Shown here: positions 54,905 through 64,000 of the stretch, in pieces
How positions within the stretch are numbered: the first letter of the stretch is position 1
Layout: each line of letters begins with the position of its first letter
Source: Asticcacaulis endophyticus
Lineage (GTDB): Bacteria; Pseudomonadota; Alphaproteobacteria; Caulobacterales; Caulobacteraceae
Direction: 5' to 3'
Length of the DNA: 64,000 nucleotides
Assembly: GCF_014652575.1 (NCBI RefSeq)
Contig: NZ_BMZB01000003.1
Location: 310,001-374,000 of the forward strand
The notes under the pieces: generated by a model
Databases searched by the model: none
What the model was told of the DNA's origin: nothing
What the model saw: the letters and a program-made list of their open reading frames with translations, nothing else
Translations under genes and position numbers: made by a program

Positions 54905-56317
54905 ATGTCCGATACCTTATCCCCCGACGTTGTGACCCGCTTTGCCCCTTCACCCACGGGTTATCTGCATATCGGCGGAGCGCGCACAGCCCTGTTTAAC
55001 TGGCTTTATGCAAAAGCCAAAGGGGGGCGCTTTCTGATACGAATCGAAGATACCGATCGTGAGCGTTCGACGCCAGAGGCTGTGGAAGCCATTTTTGAGG
55101 GCTTGAACTGGCTAGGGCTCAATACAGACGAAGAGATCGTTTTTCAGTCCTCTCGTGAACCGCAGCATAAGCAAGTGGTCCAGTCCCTGTACCAATCTGG
55201 CCACGCCTATGCCTGCTTCATGACACCTGAAGAAACCGAAGCCGCGCGTGAAACCGCACGCGCATCAGGCCAAGCCCTACGCTCGCCGTGGCGGGACCGT
55301 GTGCCAACCGCAGAACAACTCGCGACACCCCACGTCATCCGCTTCAAGGGCCCGCTTGACGAGCCACTTGTCATCAACGATGCCGTGCAGGGGAAAGTCA
55401 GCTTTAACACCAAAGACATGGACGACCTGATCCTGCTGAGATCAGATGGAACTCCGACTTACAATCTTGCCGTTGTGGTGGACGACCATGATATGGGAGT
55501 CACCCACGTCATCAGAGGCGACGACCATCTGAATAATGCCGCGCGTCAGGCCCTTATCTACAAGGCCGCAGGATGGAATGTACCAGTCTTTGCGCATATC
55601 CCGCTGATCCATGGTCCAGACGGCGCCAAACTCAGCAAGCGCCATGGTGCTCAGGCCGTTGGAGATTATCAGGGCCTTGGTTACCTGCCCGAAGCCATGC
55701 GCAATTATTTGGCGCGGTTGGGGTGGTCTCACGGAGACGATGAAATTTTCAACGATCAACAGATGATTGACTGGTTCGACATTAAGGACATCAATAAAGC
55801 CCCTGCCCGTCTGGACTTCGATAAACTCAATCATGTCAATGCCCATTGGATAAGGGAGTGTGAGCCGAAGCGTCTTTTGATACTGGTTCACGATGACCTG
55901 ATCTCACGCGGTGTAGCTATCGATGCCCGTTCAGCGGAAATCATTGAGCGCACCCTGCCTCTGATCGTAGAGCGGGCGGTTAAAATCACTGATTTTGCCG
56001 ATCTTCTGGCCTTCGCTTTAGCGAAACGTCCGTTTCAGATCGATGAAAAAACGAAAAAACTTTTGACCGAAGAAACATTCGATCGTCTTTCACGTCTTCA
56101 CGAAAATTTGTTGTCTTTAAGTGACTGGTCCGTCGGTTCACTTGATGTAACTTTGAAAAATTTCGTTGAAAATGAAGGAGTTGGGTTCGGAAAGATCGGC
56201 CCTGCGCTGCGGGGAATACTGTCCGGCGGACACCCTGCCCCCGACATTTCGCGCATTTTGGCCGCCCTTGGCAAAAGCGAAGGCCTCGCACGACTTAAGG
56301 ATGGTCTTTTCAAATAG
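54905..56317 (+). CDS. gltX: Glutamate--tRNA ligase
   Basis: Class I aminoacyl-tRNA synthetase charging tRNA-Glu (in organisms with GatCAB, often also tRNA-Gln). The 470-residue protein has FAPSPTGYLHIGGARTALFN (HIGH-type motif), RIEDTDRERS, VVDDHDMGVTHVIRGDDH, and KLSKRHGA (KMSKS-type). Neighbours are comEC, divergent, and gltA 72 bases downstream. Confidence 0.98.
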   Translation: MSDTLSPDVVTRFAPSPTGYLHIGGARTALFNWLYAKAKGGRFLIRIEDTDRERSTPEAVEAIFEGLNWLGLNTDEEIVFQSSREPQHKQVVQSLYQSGHAYACFMTPEETEAARETARASGQALRSPWRDRVPTAEQLATPHVIRFKGPLDEPLVINDAVQGKVSFNTKDMDDLILLRSDGTPTYNLAVVVDDHDMGVTHVIRGDDHLNNAARQALIYKAAGWNVPVFAHIPLIHGPDGAKLSKRHGAQAVGDYQGLGYLPEAMRNYLARLGWSHGDDEIFNDQQMIDWFDIKDINKAPARLDFDKLNHVNAHWIRECEPKRLLILVHDDLISRGVAIDARSAEIIERTLPLIVERAVKITDFADLLAFALAKRPFQIDEKTKKLLTEETFDRLSRLHENLLSLSDWSVGSLDVTLKNFVENEGVGFGKIGPALRGILSGGHPAPDISRILAALGKSEGLARLKDGLFK

Positions 56318-56389
56318 ATCGCATGTTTATATATGAGGACACCGCATTTAGGTTGCGATGCACATAAACAATAAGAGGTGAAGCAATTC

Positions 56390-57682
56390 ATGACCCAAAC
56401 TACCAATCCCGCTAAAATTACCGTCGGCGATAAGGTCATAGATTTGCCGGTACAAAAGGGCACGCTGGGCCCTGATGTGATCGACATTCGTAAACTGTAC
56501 GCTGAATCTGACGCCTTTACCTACGATCCGGGCTTTACCTCCACGGCTTCCTGCGAGTCCAAGATCACCTTTATCGATGGCGATAAGGGTATATTGCTGC
56601 ACCGCGGTTATCCGATTGATCAACTGGCTGAAAAATCAAACTTTATAGAAACCTGCTACCTGTTGCTGCACGGCGAACTGCCATCAGCTTCGGCGTTTGA
56701 AGAGTTTGAGACGACCATCACCCGTCACACCATGTTGCATGAGCAATTCGACCGCTTCTTCTCCGGCTTCCGCAGAGACGCTCACCCTATGGCGATCATG
56801 ACGGGTGCCGTTGGTGCCCTGTCGGCATTTTACCACGACAGCCTTGATATTCAGGATGAAAAGCAGCGCGAAATTTCAGCACATCGCCTGATCGCGAAAA
56901 TGCCGACGATTGCGGCCCGTGCCTATAAGTACAGCGTCGGTCAACCCTTTGTTTATCCAAAGAACGACCTGTCCTATTCAGAAAACTTCCTGCGCATGTG
57001 CTTTGCCGTGCCGGCCGAAGATTATGAAGTGAACCCGATTCTAGCCAAGGCTATGGATCGCATCTTCATCCTCCATGCTGATCATGAACAGAACGCTTCG
57101 ACCTCTACGGTACGTCTAGCAGGGTCTTCGGGTGCAAACCCGTTTGCCTGCATTGCCGCTGGCATCGCCTGCCTGTGGGGACCGTCTCATGGTGGTGCTA
57201 ACGAAGAAGCGCTCAACATGCTCAAGGAAATTGGCACGGTCGATAAGATCCCTGAGTTCATCCAGGGCGTCAAAGACCGTAAGTACAAGCTGATGGGCTT
57301 TGGTCACCGCGTCTATAAGAACTACGATCCACGCGCCAAGGTGATGCAGACGACCTGTCATGAAGTCTTGAGCGCTGTCGGTGATCCGAACGATCCACTG
57401 CTTCAGGTTGCCCGCGAACTGGAACGCATCGCGCTCTCGGATGAGTATTTCGTGTCACGCAAGCTTTACCCGAATATCGACTTCTATTCAGGTATCACCC
57501 TGTCGGCCATGGGCTTCCCGACAACCATGTTCACCGTGCTGTTTGCCCTGGCCCGCACCGTGGGCTGGATCGCTCAATGGAAAGAGATGATTGAGGACCC
57601 ATCGCAAAAGATCGGCCGGCCGCGTCAACTCTATACAGGTTCAGCACAACGTGATTTTGTGCCATTATCACAGCGCGTTTAA
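56390..57682 (+). CDS. gltA: Citrate synthase
   Basis: Condenses oxaloacetate and acetyl-CoA, the entry step of the tricarboxylic acid cycle. From the ATG at 56390 (430 residues; AGAGGTG upstream) it is of the large hexameric type. Motifs: [34 protein letters not shown] with the catalytic His, [12 protein letters not shown], and [15 protein letters not shown]. The C-terminus is the expected length. Confidence 0.98.
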
Positions 57683-57707
57683 CGAAGAACTGTTCGCTAT
57701 AATTAAG

Positions 57708-57739
57708 AAAGCGCTCCGTACCGTTACGGGGCGCTTTTT
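57708..57739 (+). terminator. gltA terminator
   Basis: AAAGCGC-T-CCGTA pairs with TACGG-G-GCGCTTT around a four-base loop, followed by TT. It is a 12-13 base-pair stem about 25 bases past the gltA stop. Confidence 0.9.
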
Positions 57740-57831
57740 GTTGGGTAATAGGCCGTTTAATCTTCAACACCTATACGCTTTTATCGCGTCTAACCGGTCT
57801 GAAGTTTTCCGTCTGGGACATGTGGCGTATG

Positions 57832-58485
57832 CTAAGTGTGCATTTTAGCGGCTTCAAGCTGCACGCGCGATGCCACCCGATCAATATGGCTGCCTTCACC
57901 GGTCATATCGCGCTGACGCAGCGCCGCCAGAATGGCCGTTGAGGCATAGACGCCGGTGAACAGATCGACTACAGCGACGCCTACCTTTTGCGGCTCACGG
58001 TGCGGCTCCCCGGTAATATCCATCAGGCCCGACATACCCTGAATGATGTAGTCATAGCCCGCGCGGTGGGCATAGGGCCCGTCCTGCCCAAAGCCGGTGA
58101 TCGACACATAAACCAGACGCGGATTTATGGCTTTGAGGCTATTGTAATCGAGTCCATATTTCTTTAATCCACCGACCTTGAAGTTCTCAATCAGCACATC
58201 GGCCTGTGCTACTAACTGGCGGATGCGGGCCTGTCCTTCGGGTGTGGCCATATCCAGACAGACCGAAGTTTTTCCGCGATTGGTGGCATGGAAATAGGCG
58301 GCACCCCAGACGCTGCCGTCAGTATCGTGCACAAACGGCGGGCCCCAGCCACGGGTGTCATCGCCCTCACCGGGGCGCTCGACCTTGATGACCTCGGCGC
58401 CCAGATCCGCCAGCACCTGACCGGCCCACGGCCCCGCCAGTATCCGCGCCAGTTCTAAGACCTTGATACCAGAAAGCGGTTTCAA
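57832..58485 (-). pseudogene. CaiB/BaiF CoA-transferase, truncated after N-terminal half
   Basis: Related to class III CoA-transferases such as succinyl-CoA:glutarate CoA-transferase. It matches the family from MKPLSGIKVLELARILAGPWAG through GYDYIIQGMSGLMDITG, and the likely catalytic Asp is retained (about 174 in VVDLFTG). The match ends after GEGSHID at about residue 202, followed by 15 unrelated residues and a stop. Family members are about 390-400 residues and wrap into interlocked dimers, so about half the protein is missing. The start is a TTG at 58485. It sits right after gcdH in the catabolic operon, where a glutarate-activating enzyme would be expected. Probably a deletion remnant. 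Confidence 0.8.
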
Positions 58486-58523
58486 AGTAAGGCCCCCACC
58501 ACCATCTTCGCTGCGCGCGATGG

Positions 58524-58612
58524 TCCCCCTCCCCAGTAAACTGGGGAGGTAGAAATAGTATCATATCCCCCTGCCTTGGGCGGGGGGAAACCGGCGAAGC
58601 CGGAGGGGGGGA
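58524..58612. repeat. Palindromic extragenic element (REP-like)
   Basis: Between gcdH and the CoA-transferase remnant, CCTCCCCAGT-AA-ACTGGGGAGG (58528-58549) is a perfect ten-base-pair hairpin. It is followed by CCCCCTGCC/GGGCGGGGG (58567-58587) and CCGGC-GAA-GCCGG (58591-58603) and runs of G. The symmetry and GC-rich ends resemble dispersed intergenic palindromes of this bacterial group. Only one copy is in the window. Confidence 0.6.
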
Positions 58613-58641
58613 GGTCTTGGCTGGCCATCAAAAGCATCCGA

Positions 58642-59811
58642 TTAATAGAAGGCCTGCAGGCCCGTCTGCGCCCGACCCAGGATGAGGGCATGGACATCGT
58701 GGGTGCCCTCATAGGTATTGACGCTCTCCAGGTTCTGGGCGTGGCGCATGACGTGGTATTCTTCGTGGATGCCGTTGCCGCCGTGCATGTCGCGCGCATG
58801 GCGGGCAATATCGAGCGCCTTGCCGCAGTTGTTGCGCTTGATCAGGCTAATCATCTCCGGCTGCATTTGTCCGGCGTCAAACAGTTGCCCGACGCGCAAG
58901 GCCGCTTGCAGCCCCAAGGTGATCTCGGTCTGCATGTCGGCCAGCTTCTTCTGGAACAGTTGCGTCTGCGCCAAAGGCCTCCCGAACTGCACCCGGTCAA
59001 GGCCATACTGCCGCGCCCGATGCCAGCAGTCTTCCGCCGCCCCCATCACGCCCCAGGCAATGCCATAACGCGCCCGATTGAGACACCCAAACGGCCCTTT
59101 CAGGCCGGAGGCATCGGGAAAAATCGCGTCGTCTCCGACCTCGACATTGTCCATTACAATCTCGCCGGTGATCGAGGCGCGCAAGGACAGCTTACCGTGG
59201 ATTTTCGGCGCAGACAGGCCGTGCGAGCCCTTATCCAGCACAAAGCCGCGGATCACCCCGTCGAGCTTGGCCCAGACTACAAACACATCAGCGATCGGTG
59301 AGTTCGATATCCACATCTTGGTGCCGTTGAGGACATAACCGCCGTCAACTTTACGCGCCACAGACCGCATCGAACCGGGGTCAGACCCTGCGTCGGGTTC
59401 AGTCAGGCCAAAGCAGCCGATCCATTCGCCTGACGCCAGCTTGGGCAGGTATTTCTGCTTTTGGGCTTCAGAGCCATAGGCATGGATCGGATACATGACC
59501 AGCGACGACTGCACGCTCATCATCGAGCGATAGCCGCTATCGACCCGCTCGACCTCGCGCGCGATCAGGCCGTAGGCGACATAACTGGCCCCCGCCCCGC
59601 CAAATTCTTCCGGCAAGGTCGCGCCTAACAATCCGCGCTGACCCATCTCGGTGAAAATAGCGCGGTCGGTGTCTTCTTCGGCATAGGCGCGCAAAACCCG
59701 CGGCACCAATGACGATTGCGCATAGTCATGGGCCGCGTCACGGATCATACGTTCTTCGTCGGACAACTGCGCGTTCAAAAGGAACGGGTCGCTCCAGTCG
59801 AACGCACTCAT
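58642..59811 (-). CDS. gcdH: Glutaryl-CoA dehydrogenase
   Basis: FAD-dependent acyl-CoA dehydrogenase that oxidises and decarboxylates glutaryl-CoA to crotonyl-CoA at the end of lysine and glutarate degradation. The 389-residue protein has [51 protein letters not shown] and [15 protein letters not shown]. The catalytic Glu (about 368) is in [16 protein letters not shown], a signature closely tied to this enzyme. Its start overlaps the gabT stop by four bases. Confidence 0.95.
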
Positions 59812-61085
59812 GCTGCCAATGCCTGTTCCAGCAAGGCCATGCCTTCGTCAAACACCACTTCTGAAATGGTCAGCGGCATCAAAAAGCGCAGGGTTTCCCC
59901 GTAAATCCCGCACGATATCTGGATCAAACCCAGTTCCAGCGCTTTCGCCGTCACCCGCTTGGTGGCTTCACCGTCAGGTTCATTACCGCCGCGCACCTTA
60001 ACCAGATCGAAGGCCATCATCGCCCCTAAGCCCCGGATATTGGCGATCGGCAGCAGGTCTTCACGTCCGGCCCAGGCTTCAAAACGTGCCTGCATCCGTG
60101 CGCCTAACACCTCTGATTTGGTCAGCAAATCCTCATCGGCGATCACCTGCTGCACGGCCAGCGCCGCCGCACATGATAGTGGTGATCCGCCAAAGGTTGA
60201 CCCCAGACCACCGGGATCGACAGTGTCCATGATTTCGGCGCGGCCCAGAACCCCCGATAGCGGGAACCCGCCCGACATGGATTTGGCCATGGTGATCAGG
60301 TCAGGCTCAACGCCCGCATGTTCAATGGCGAACATCTTACCTGTCCGCCCAAAGCCAGTCTGAACTTCATCAATAATCAACTTGATACCATGGGTGTCGC
60401 ACAGCCCGCGCAAGGCCTTAAGCAACTCCGGCGGCGTGACGTGGAACCCGCCCTCGCCCTGCACCGGTTCGATGATGATGGCGGCGATACGCGACGGTTC
60501 GACATCGGCGCGGAACAGGGTGTCCAGTGCTTTCAGGCTATCCTCAACCGTCACCCCGTAATGGGCAACCGGAAACGGCACATGCCACACTTCGGACGGC
60601 ATGATGCCGAACTGCTTCTTATAGGGCGTGACCTTGCCCGTCAGGGCCGAGGTCATCAGGGTGCGGCCATGAAACGCGCCAGAGAAAGCAATCACACCCG
60701 AACGGCCGGTCGCAGCCCGCGCGATTTTCACCGCGTTTTCGACGGCTTCGGCGCCTGTGTTGAAAAAGATGGTCTTGGCCGGGCCTTTGAACGGCGCCAA
60801 CGCGTTTAGAGCCTCGGCCAGCGCCACATAGGGCTTATAGGGCAAGACCTGAAAACAGGTGTGATGAAAGGACTTAAGCTGGGCTTCGACCGCCGCGATG
60901 ATGAGCGGGTGGTTATGGCCGGTGTTCAAAACGGCAATGCCGCCAACGAAATCAATATACCGCCTACCCTCCACGTCCCAGATCTCGGCGTTGAGCGCGC
61001 GAGCGGCGAAGACGCCGCTGGCATTGGCAACGCCTCTGGGGATGGCGTTCAGGCGGCGCTGCATCAGGTCAGAATTGCTCATCAT
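59808..61085 (-). CDS. gabT: 4-aminobutyrate/5-aminovalerate aminotransferase (GabT-type)
   Basis: PLP enzyme that transfers the amino group of GABA (and often 5-aminovalerate) to 2-oxoglutarate. The 425-residue class III aminotransferase has [50 protein letters not shown] and the PLP Lys at about 268 in [12 protein letters not shown]. With gcdH next to it, 5-aminovalerate use (DavT role) is as likely as GABA. It overlaps both neighbours by four bases. Confidence 0.92.
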
Positions 61086-61462: not shown

Positions 61463-62923
61463 CTACAAACCGATAGCCAGATATTTAATTTCGGTGAAGT
61501 CTTCGAGGCCGTAACGGGAGCCTTCGCGGCCCACGCCGGATTCTTTGACGCCGCCAAACGGGGTCGCCGGATTGGACGACAAGACCTCATTGGCCCCGAC
61601 CATGCCGTATTCCAGCGCTTCGGCTACGCGGAAGATGCGCCCGATATCGCGCGCCCAGAAATAGGCCGCCAGACCGTAAGGCGTGTCATTGGCCAGTTTG
61701 ATAACCTCGTCCTCGGTCTCAAACTCATAGAGCGGGGCGACGGGGCCGAAAATCTCAGCCGTCGCCAGTTCCATATCGGGTGTGATGCCAGTCAGGATCG
61801 TCGGGGCATAAAAATTGCCGCCGCGGTCATGGCGCGCGCCCCCCAGTTCAGCCGTCGCCCCCTTGTCGAGCGCGTCCTTGACCAGACCGGAAACCTTATC
61901 AATCGCGGCGGTATTAATCAGCGGCCCGATGCGGGTGTTACCGTCCAGACCATCCCCGACCGGCAGAGCTTCGACGGCGGCCTTCAAGCGTTTGGCAAAC
62001 TCAGCCGCCACACTTTTTTGCACGTAAAACCGGTTAGCCGACACGCAGGTCTGACCGGCATTACGCAGTTTGGCCGCGATTGCCCCCGCTACAGCCGCAT
62101 CCAGATCGGCGTCGTCAAACACGATAAACGGCGCATTGCCGCCCAGTTCCAGCGACAGCTTTTTGAGCGTGCCCGCGCACTGTTGCATCAGCAGTTTCCC
62201 CACCCGCGTTGAGCCGGTGAAGGAGATTTTGCGCACATCGGGGTGGGAGGTCAGCACACCGGCCACTTCGGGCGCAGAGGATGCCGTGACGATATTGATG
62301 ACACCGTCCGGGAACCCGGCTTGTTCGGCCAACATGGCCAGAACCAGGGCCGACAAAGGCGTGTCTTCGGCGGGCTTGATGACAATGGTGCAGCCGGCCG
62401 CCAGCGCTGGAGCGACTTTGCGCGTGATCATGGCTGACGGGAAATTCCACGGCGTGATCGCGCCCACAACGCCAACCGGCTGCTTGATGACCAGACAGCG
62501 TTTATCGGGCGCGTGCGACGGGATGACATCGCCGTAAAGCCGCTTACCCTCTTCGGCAAACCATTCGATAAAGTTGGCGCCGAACGTGACTTCGCCGGTG
62601 GCCTCAGTGATGGGCTTGCCCTGTTCCAGCGTCAGAAGCTGACCCAGCGCGTCCTTGCGTTCATAGATCAGGCCGTGCCAGCGGCGCATGATGGCGGCGC
62701 GTTCAATGGCTGTTTTCCTGGCCCAGGCCGGAAAGGCGGCGGATGCTGCGGCAATCGCAGCTTCGCAATCGGCGGCCGTCATATCGGCCACGTCAGCGAT
62801 TTTGGCACCCGTGGCCGGATTGTAAACCGCGAAGGTCTTTTGTGCCTTATAGCGGCCCGCAAAGGCCAGCACTTCGGTCAGTATATCCGCCGCCAGAGGG
62901 GCGATTTTGATCAGGTCATACAT
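61463..62923 (-). CDS. gabD: NAD(P)-dependent succinate/glutarate semialdehyde dehydrogenase
   Basis: Oxidises succinate semialdehyde (from GABA) or glutarate semialdehyde (from 5-aminovalerate). The 486-residue aldehyde dehydrogenase has ITPWNFPSAMITRK, FTGSTRVGK, the general base Glu at about 259 (LELGGNAPF), and nucleophile Cys at about 293 (AGQTCVSANRF). The GQTCVSANR form is that of GabD. It starts two bases after the aminotransferase gene upstream in the operon. Confidence 0.94.
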   Translation of the reverse strand: MYDLIKIAPLAADILTEVLAFAGRYKAQKTFAVYNPATGAKIADVADMTAADCEAAIAAASAAFPAWARKTAIERAAIMRRWHGLIYERKDALGQLLTLEQGKPITEATGEVTFGANFIEWFAEEGKRLYGDVIPSHAPDKRCLVIKQPVGVVGAITPWNFPSAMITRKVAPALAAGCTIVIKPAEDTPLSALVLAMLAEQAGFPDGVINIVTASSAPEVAGVLTSHPDVRKISFTGSTRVGKLLMQQCAGTLKKLSLELGGNAPFIVFDDADLDAAVAGAIAAKLRNAGQTCVSANRFYVQKSVAAEFAKRLKAAVEALPVGDGLDGNTRIGPLINTAAIDKVSGLVKDALDKGATAELGGARHDRGGNFYAPTILTGITPDMELATAEIFGPVAPLYEFETEDEVIKLANDTPYGLAAYFWARDIGRIFRVAEALEYGMVGANEVLSSNPATPFGGVKESGVGREGSRYGLEDFTEIKYLAIGL

Positions 62924-62925
62924 GT

Positions 62926-64000
62926 TCAGACTCCCAATTTTTTGGCAGTGGCGTCGAGCGCGCGGCCAAGGATGTCGACGGTTTGGTCAACCTCGGCATG
63001 GGTGTAGATCAGCGGCGGACTAAGCACGATCGACGGTCCCACGGCGCGCACGATCAGGCCCTCATTATAGCAATAGTCGCGACAGAAAATGCTGGCATTA
63101 TCCGTCAGGGTCGGCAGTTCGCGCGTGTCTTTGTTTTTAACCAGTTGCAGAGCGGCCATCATGCCGATCCCGCGCCGCTCACCGACGATCGGACTGCTAT
63201 CGACCAGCTTATCGAGCGCGGCCATAAAGTACGGGCCAATATCGTCACGCACCCGCGCGACTAAGCCCTCGTTTTCGATGATGTCGATATTGGCCAGCGC
63301 GACCGCACAGGCGACCGGGTGGCCGGAATAGGTGTAGCCGTGCGCCAGATGCCCGCCGTCAGCCAGCACATTGTAGACCCGGTCATGGATACCGACCGCC
63401 GCCACCGGCAGATACCCAGACGACAGGCCCTTGGCCATCGGCATGAAATCAGGCTGGATTCCCAGGGTTTGCGACCCGAACCATGATCCTGTGCGACCAA
63501 ATCCGCAGATGACTTCGTCGGCAATCAGCAAAATATCGTACTGCTTACAGATGCGCTGAATTTCTGGCCAGTAGGTCGATGGCGGATCAATGACCCCGCC
63601 GGCGCCTTGAACCGGCTCACCGATAAAGGCGCAGACGTTTTCCGCACCCAATTCAAGGATTTTATCCTCCAGCGCACGGGCGGCCTTGAGGCCAAACTCG
63701 TCGCGTGACAGTCCCTCACCGTACAGATACCAGTGGGGGTGCGCGATATGCACCACCTCATTCGACACACCGCCGTCCATGGCGTGCATGTGCGGCATCC
63801 CGCCGAGTGCTGAGCCCATGACAGTTGAGCCATGATAGGCCATGGTCCGGCTGATGATCGTGCGCTTGGTGACCCGCCCCTGAAGCTGCCAGAACTGACG
63901 CGCCAGACGGGCAATGGCGTCATTGGCCTCCGACCCAGAATTGGCGAACGCGAAGTGATTGATCGTATCGGGCGTCAACCCCGCCAGACGTGCCGCCAGC
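62926..64000 (-). CDS. Class III aminotransferase (putrescine/omega-amine:pyruvate type), 5' end cut by window
   Basis: PLP aminotransferase acting on diamines or omega-amino acids, resembling SpuC-type putrescine-pyruvate aminotransferases. About 358 codons are in the window, running open through 64000 (LAARLAGLTPDTINHF). The apparent start at 63978 is only a TTG inside the conserved region. Marks: FANSGSEANDAIARLAR, YHGSTVMGSALGG, FIGEPVQGAGGV, LIADEVICGFGRTG, and the PLP Lys in MPMAKGLSSGY. The missing N-terminus should be about 90-100 residues. Activity on putrescine versus cadaverine cannot be told. Confidence 0.88.
   Translation of the reverse strand, partial: LAARLAGLTPDTINHFAFANSGSEANDAIARLARQFWQLQGRVTKRTIISRTMAYHGSTVMGSALGGMPHMHAMDGGVSNEVVHIAHPHWYLYGEGLSRDEFGLKAARALEDKILELGAENVCAFIGEPVQGAGGVIDPPSTYWPEIQRICKQYDILLIADEVICGFGRTGSWFGSQTLGIQPDFMPMAKGLSSGYLPVAAVGIHDRVYNVLADGGHLAHGYTYSGHPVACAVALANIDIIENEGLVARVRDDIGPYFMAALDKLVDSSPIVGERRGIGMMAALQLVKNKDTRELPTLTDNASIFCRDYCYNEGLIVRAVGPSIVLSPPLIYTHAEVDQTVDILGRALDATAKKLGV

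Follow-up and report, generated by a model that had tools for sequence, protein, structure and literature searches.

A truncated second caiB gene beside a retained gcdH copy in Asticcacaulis endophyticus is probably a decaying pseudogene

The window analyzed here (the whole stretch of 64,000 nucleotides, positions 310,001 to 374,000 of contig NZ_BMZB01000003.1 of Asticcacaulis endophyticus) carries on its minus strand an open reading frame, 57832-58485, whose translation spans 217 codons from a TTG start. We propose, with a probability of about 0.92, that this fragment is what remains of a second copy of the CoA-transferase gene caiB, now a pseudogene in the course of decay. It is truncated relative to its homologs, the missing part is absent at the locus, and an intact copy exists elsewhere in the genome. 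The coordinates of the fragment and its surroundings are given in Table 1.

Table 1. Features at the caiB remnant locus, in window coordinates; G003 and G012 are relatives of the same genus
Feature	Position	Strand	Basis or remark
gltA, intact, convergent with the caiB remnant	56378..57682	+	homolog in 25 of 25 genomes searched
gltA 3' trailer with terminator-like hairpin	57683..57812	+	common to G012 (to 57812) and G003 (to 57792)
19-base breakpoint stretch separating caiB remnant from gltA trailer	57813..57831	.	outside both matches
one new Lys codon, short match to codons 301-303 (MHT), TAG stop	57832..57846	-	
caiB own codons 284-294 (RVASRVQLEAA), in frame	57847..57879	-	local alignment to the intact paralog
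caiB remnant codons 1-202, TTG start	57880..58485	-	PF02515; 94% amino acid identity to the C1 copy
core of dispersed palindromic intergenic repeat	58530..58549	.	in the gap from the caiB remnant to gcdH
second gcdH copy, acyl-CoA dehydrogenase, 389 aa, intact	58642..59811	-	Pfam
gabT-like 4-aminobutyrate/omega-amino acid transaminase, 425 aa, intact	59808..61085	-	TIGR00700, 537.2 bits (cut-off 506.65)
RidA-like enamine/imine deaminase, 123 aa	61082..61453	-	PF01042, 64.5 bits (cut-off 27.3)
gabD-like succinate(/glutarate) semialdehyde dehydrogenase, 486 aa, intact	61463..62923	-	TIGR01780, 673.1 bits (cut-off 646.35)
class-III aminotransferase, 456 aa in all, continues past window end	62926..64000	-	PRK07480, 674.6 bits (cut-off 510)

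The family profile PF02515 (CoA_transf_3) matches residues 4-202 of the remnant with 281.1 bits (E 1.8e-83), above the curated cut-off of 23.3, which agrees with the first-pass annotation in placing the end of the CaiB/BaiF match at about residue 202. This match comprises profile positions 1-192 of 366 and is not a full-length domain, whereas the intact copy described below covers positions 1-364. Codons 1-202 are free of stops and frameshifts, and their homology to the intact copy ends at the first deletion junction, 57880/57879. The Asp region had been thought to be retained, and the conserved Asp in the stretch VGVAVVDLFTG (Asp174 by count) is indeed present, as it is in all 15 aligned CaiB rows and in PDB 4ed9; we take this Asp to be the catalytic residue of CoA-transferase family III. 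Judged from what is known of the family, the remnant, lacking its second half, should neither adopt the fold typical of CaiB nor form an active dimer. Its best NCBIfam model is NF052585 (succinate--glutarate CoA-transferase; 351.9 bits, below the curated cut-off of 750).

The end of the reading frame had been explained by one short deletion joining caiB to 15 foreign residues. Local alignment leads to a different account: eleven of the 15 are the gene's own residues 284-294, followed by a Lys and a short match to residues 301-303, so that the whole frame consists of codons 1-202, 284-294, Lys, probably 301-303 and a stop (202+11+1+3 = 217). Window 57848-57879 aligns to codons 284-294 of the intact gene over 32 nt with 90.6% identity (E 2.8e-8), and 57836-57843 is identical over 8 nt to codons 301-303, in order and in frame, a match that is weak alone (E 6). 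A foreign origin of the tail was ruled out because it consists mostly of downstream codons of caiB itself. Two global alignments break at the same first junction but misplace the tail, for which the local search is decisive. At least two internal deletions are therefore present in addition to the junction with the gltA trailer. The first removed exactly 81 codons (243 nt) and joins residue 202 to 284, the second replaced six codons by one, both kept the frame, and codons 304-377 are gone. A frameshift hiding the C-terminal half, suggested earlier as a possible sequencing error, was also ruled out: the C-terminal 175 residues searched against the own genome find only the intact copy (E 7e-117), the next match having an E value of 0.09.

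That intact copy lies on contig C1. A PF02515 search of the genome (13 contigs totaling 3.95 Mb, stated completeness 100) yielded two places, the window remnant and a full-length gene of 377 residues at C1:72280-73413 (locus L033, 9781-10914), which shares 94% amino acid identity with the remnant over residues 1-204 and 92% identity in DNA. NF052585 is the best NCBIfam model for the C1 gene too (561.9 bits, likewise below 750). The intact copy is matched nearly end to end by PDB 4ed9 ('CAIB/BAIF family protein'; E 1.1e-140, residues 3-372) and 9br7 ('Succinate--hydroxymethylglutarate CoA-transferase'; E 4.5e-92, residues 1-369), whereas the remnant extends no further than residue 202, apart from the short pieces in its tail. 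The C1 gene neighbors another gcdH in an operon of the pipecolate/lysine type. Also encoded there are an L-piperidine-6-carboxylate dehydrogenase (800 bits for NF050084, against a cut-off of 730), a thiamine-pyrophosphate enzyme (850 bits for PRK08199, against 539) and an AmaA-like L-pipecolate oxidase, which at 458 bits stays under its cut-off of 600. The full-length gene and its operon neighbors indicate that a class III CoA-transferase is present in complete form in this genome, within a pipecolate/lysine-type operon. The open reading frame of the thiamine-pyrophosphate enzyme (PRK08199 subfamily; L033 8136-9851, on C1) overlaps the end of the intact caiB; as a lead only, this enzyme might act on a lysine-derived 2-oxo acid.

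Two known systems resemble this arrangement. The CaiB of Agrobacterium tumefaciens (Atu2127) is reported to be a succinyl-CoA:glutarate CoA-transferase, an alphaproteobacterial class III enzyme of lysine/glutarate breakdown (PMC7645780). The C1 paralog is by that description a plausible counterpart, whereas the window copy is truncated. For Pseudomonas putida, GcdG beside GcdH (PMC7645780) and the gcdH promoter (PMC6667623) have been described, again a gcdH paired with a CaiB-type gene in glutarate utilization; here, in contrast, the gcdH-caiB pair occurs twice and one caiB is broken. Glutarate is a putative substrate by analogy with Agrobacterium CaiB and P. putida GcdG, together with the neighboring gcdH and the below-cut-off NF052585 match. 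Among the papers listed by a literature search, no title or opening of an abstract concerns the remnant locus, which is no proof of absence from print.

The first-pass annotation had considered that the pathway lost its CoA-activation step or uses another CoA-transferase. The intact 377-residue copy speaks for the latter: the CoA-transfer step is most likely supplied from C1, and since that copy resides in the same genome the cell has most likely lost nothing, which would make this ordinary gene decay. The neighboring gcdH, gabT and gabD are intact as had been stated; these three and the RidA-like gene have open frames and match almost the whole length of their Pfam models, and the frame of the aminotransferase that leaves the window is open as well. 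No NCBIfam model exceeds its cut-off for the window gcdH (GlutCoADH_Des 210 versus 470), whose glutaryl-CoA label is thus presumptive, and those for the RidA-like gene also score under cut-off.

The caiB match listing comprises 41 genomes, 25 of them Asticcacaulis (the own genome, G000, included). Matches of at least 76% identity occur in 22 of the 25, and 19 cover residues 1 or 2 to 203-204; in G003 and G008 the match is interrupted by the end of a contig, and a frame change splits that of G018. No caiB match was found at E 0.001 in G019 and G020, and only a 40% match in G004. The G018 gene looks split in that two overlapping segments match, one for residues 2-61, which contains one TGA, and one for residues 46-203 (G018:C1:166115-166719, locus L023). 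Of the genus genomes searched, 16 have both caiB and gcdH, and match coordinates put the two side by side in 13 of these; the gcdH-caiB pair of the C1 type is the common arrangement in Asticcacaulis, its wider neighborhood having been read in G012 and partly in G003 and G008.

The second locus is rarer. gcdH is doubled in three of the 16 genus genomes (G000, G003 and G012), and a window-type gabT (at least 93% identity) exists in four of the 25 (the same three and G008). Three more genus genomes have a gabT at 70-73%, with no gcdH or caiB match in the 17 kb around each. At the window-type locus of G012 a 35-bp caiB scar is left (91%, E 1.4e-7), no caiB remnant is detectable in G003 at E 1e-4, and the G008 contig ends inside gcdH; the caiB end is readable in three clusters, those of G000, G003 and G012.

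An alternative reading, to which we give very little weight, is that the truncated product has a function of its own, such as partnering or regulating the intact CoA-transferase. The open frame of 217 codons, the in-frame deletions and a dN/dS far below 1, the last being the main evidence left for it, are what such a short protein under selection would display, and they fit recent decay as well. The relatives argue against it: G012 keeps only a scar and G003 nothing detectable. With G003 and G008 set aside for their contig ends and G018 for its frame change, the 217-codon form was found nowhere else in the 41-genome listing, and the other genus matches from residue 1 or 2 to 203-204 sit in frames of at least 371 codons, so that the idea of a short form conserved in relatives is not borne out. 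Two distant partial matches (G038 and G036) sit in frames of 240 and 297 codons at 35-38% identity. The more specific version, in which the half-protein is produced and retained, pairing with the intact paralog to tune glutarate activation for the gcdH-bearing cluster, appears even less probable.

The dN/dS of the remnant is 0.115 against C1 (0.129 over 204 codons with three copies) and 0.086-0.087 against G012 and G013, compared with 0.034-0.051 among C1, G012 and G013; the pairs given do not involve G003_C68, G008_C1 and G024. These values suggest somewhat relaxed constraint on the remnant, but weakly, because the range among more distant, presumably functional genus copies (0.080 to 0.261) includes them. 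Neutral evolution, with dN/dS near 1, is not seen, which is not decisive since recent decay predicts a low value.

The differences between fragment and C1 copy are clustered: 29 of the 52 fall in caiB nt 241-360 (window 58126-58245) and none in nt 61-180, and a mosaic origin of the remnant is possible. The longest run shared between window and C1 lies beyond most shuffles for caiB (3 of 20000) and for gcdH (42 of 20000). This signal was not taken as evidence of gene conversion between the copies, because it is unspecific: orthologous caiB pairs give it too (C1-G012 0, C1-G013 1 and G012-G013 0 of 20000), which traces to the clustering of the window's private changes near nt 241-360. The two-copy gcdH pairs of G012 (1988 of 20000) and G003 (8798 of 20000) give no signal. 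In the caiB tree, from which G024 was left out, the window branch measures 0.071 and the C1 branch 0.022, and the remnant is placed beside G003_C68 with weak support (0.586); the gcdH tree mixes the two loci, also with weak support.

The 3' side of the remnant points to rearrangement. The convergent gene, which we take to be gltA (citrate synthase), is shared with its trailer by relatives, window 56301-57812 being 95% identical to G012 and 56301-57792 97% identical to G003; the trailer part 57641-57812 by itself is 86% identical in G012. The match in G013 is limited to the hairpin part of the trailer, and G008 has no gltA-trailer match past 57666. The gcdH end of the cluster faces gltA in G000 and, in G012 and G003, a presumably ligD-like gene; in G012, gltA lies at 2.83 Mb and the cluster at 3.68 Mb. 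With gltA apart from the cluster in both G012 and G003, one of the lineages has a breakpoint at the cluster's caiB end. ligD of G000 (C2:468310-470706) is adjoined by a 28% match to the protein, presumably FecR-like, that follows gltA in G012, ligD of G013 is likewise adjoined by such a match (30%), and window 57683-58700 has no match within 12.5 kb around the G000 ligD. The region downstream of gltA looks like a rearrangement-prone site. The sequence 3' of gltA (window 57813 onward; L085, L086, L087 and L088) differs among G000, G003 and G012, and G013 and G008 likewise have no match to the window there.

A junction of this kind could also be produced by an assembly or sequencing error, caiB being really intact and the copies and gltA falsely joined. 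At the DNA level the two copies share 92% identity. The G003 and G008 contigs end inside caiB and the G003 copy contains unresolved bases (X), which indicates that the duplicated stretch does disturb assemblies. However, the join is found some 368 kb into a contig of 454 kb, the gltA trailer runs on to 57812 just as in G012, and G012 and G003, which are contiguous at the locus, also lack an intact caiB there. We consider such an error highly improbable, and genuine decay remains the preferred reading.

A possible contributor to that decay lies between the remnant and gcdH. A dispersed palindromic repeat at window 58520-58620 has a core, TCCCCAGTAAACTGGGGAGG, with 6 exact copies in the own genome, against 0 for a backward-pattern control, and further copies with 1-2 mismatches. 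Similarity to the G012 locus picks up again at 58522, on the edge of the repeat, and a caiB deletion edge in G012 coincides with it; the repeat may have helped the caiB deletions.

We propose that a second caiB was added together with a second gcdH to a gabT/ridA/gabD/aminotransferase cluster in the ancestor of a few Asticcacaulis species. There the second caiB would have been dispensable, as the first copy would serve both loci, and it would have eroded differently in each species while the second gcdH was kept. Outside the genus, gcdH and/or caiB occur in seven of the 80 loci listed (three with gcdH, six with caiB; filter 40% identity, over 60 residues), one of the 80, L129, being the G008 contig; they lie up to several kb away and sometimes on the opposite strand, and many loci are cut by contig ends. 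One of the 80, L203 from Azohydromonas lata, has gabT, gcdH and caiB in the window order, and given this locus the association of gcdH with caiB in such clusters may predate the duplication proposed here. To describe the cluster as a lysine pathway that has lost CoA activation would be misleading, a CoA-transferase of the same kind being encoded intact elsewhere in the genome. The cluster offers a small, clear case of a duplicated pair in which the gcdH partner is retained and the caiB partner is eroded species by species.
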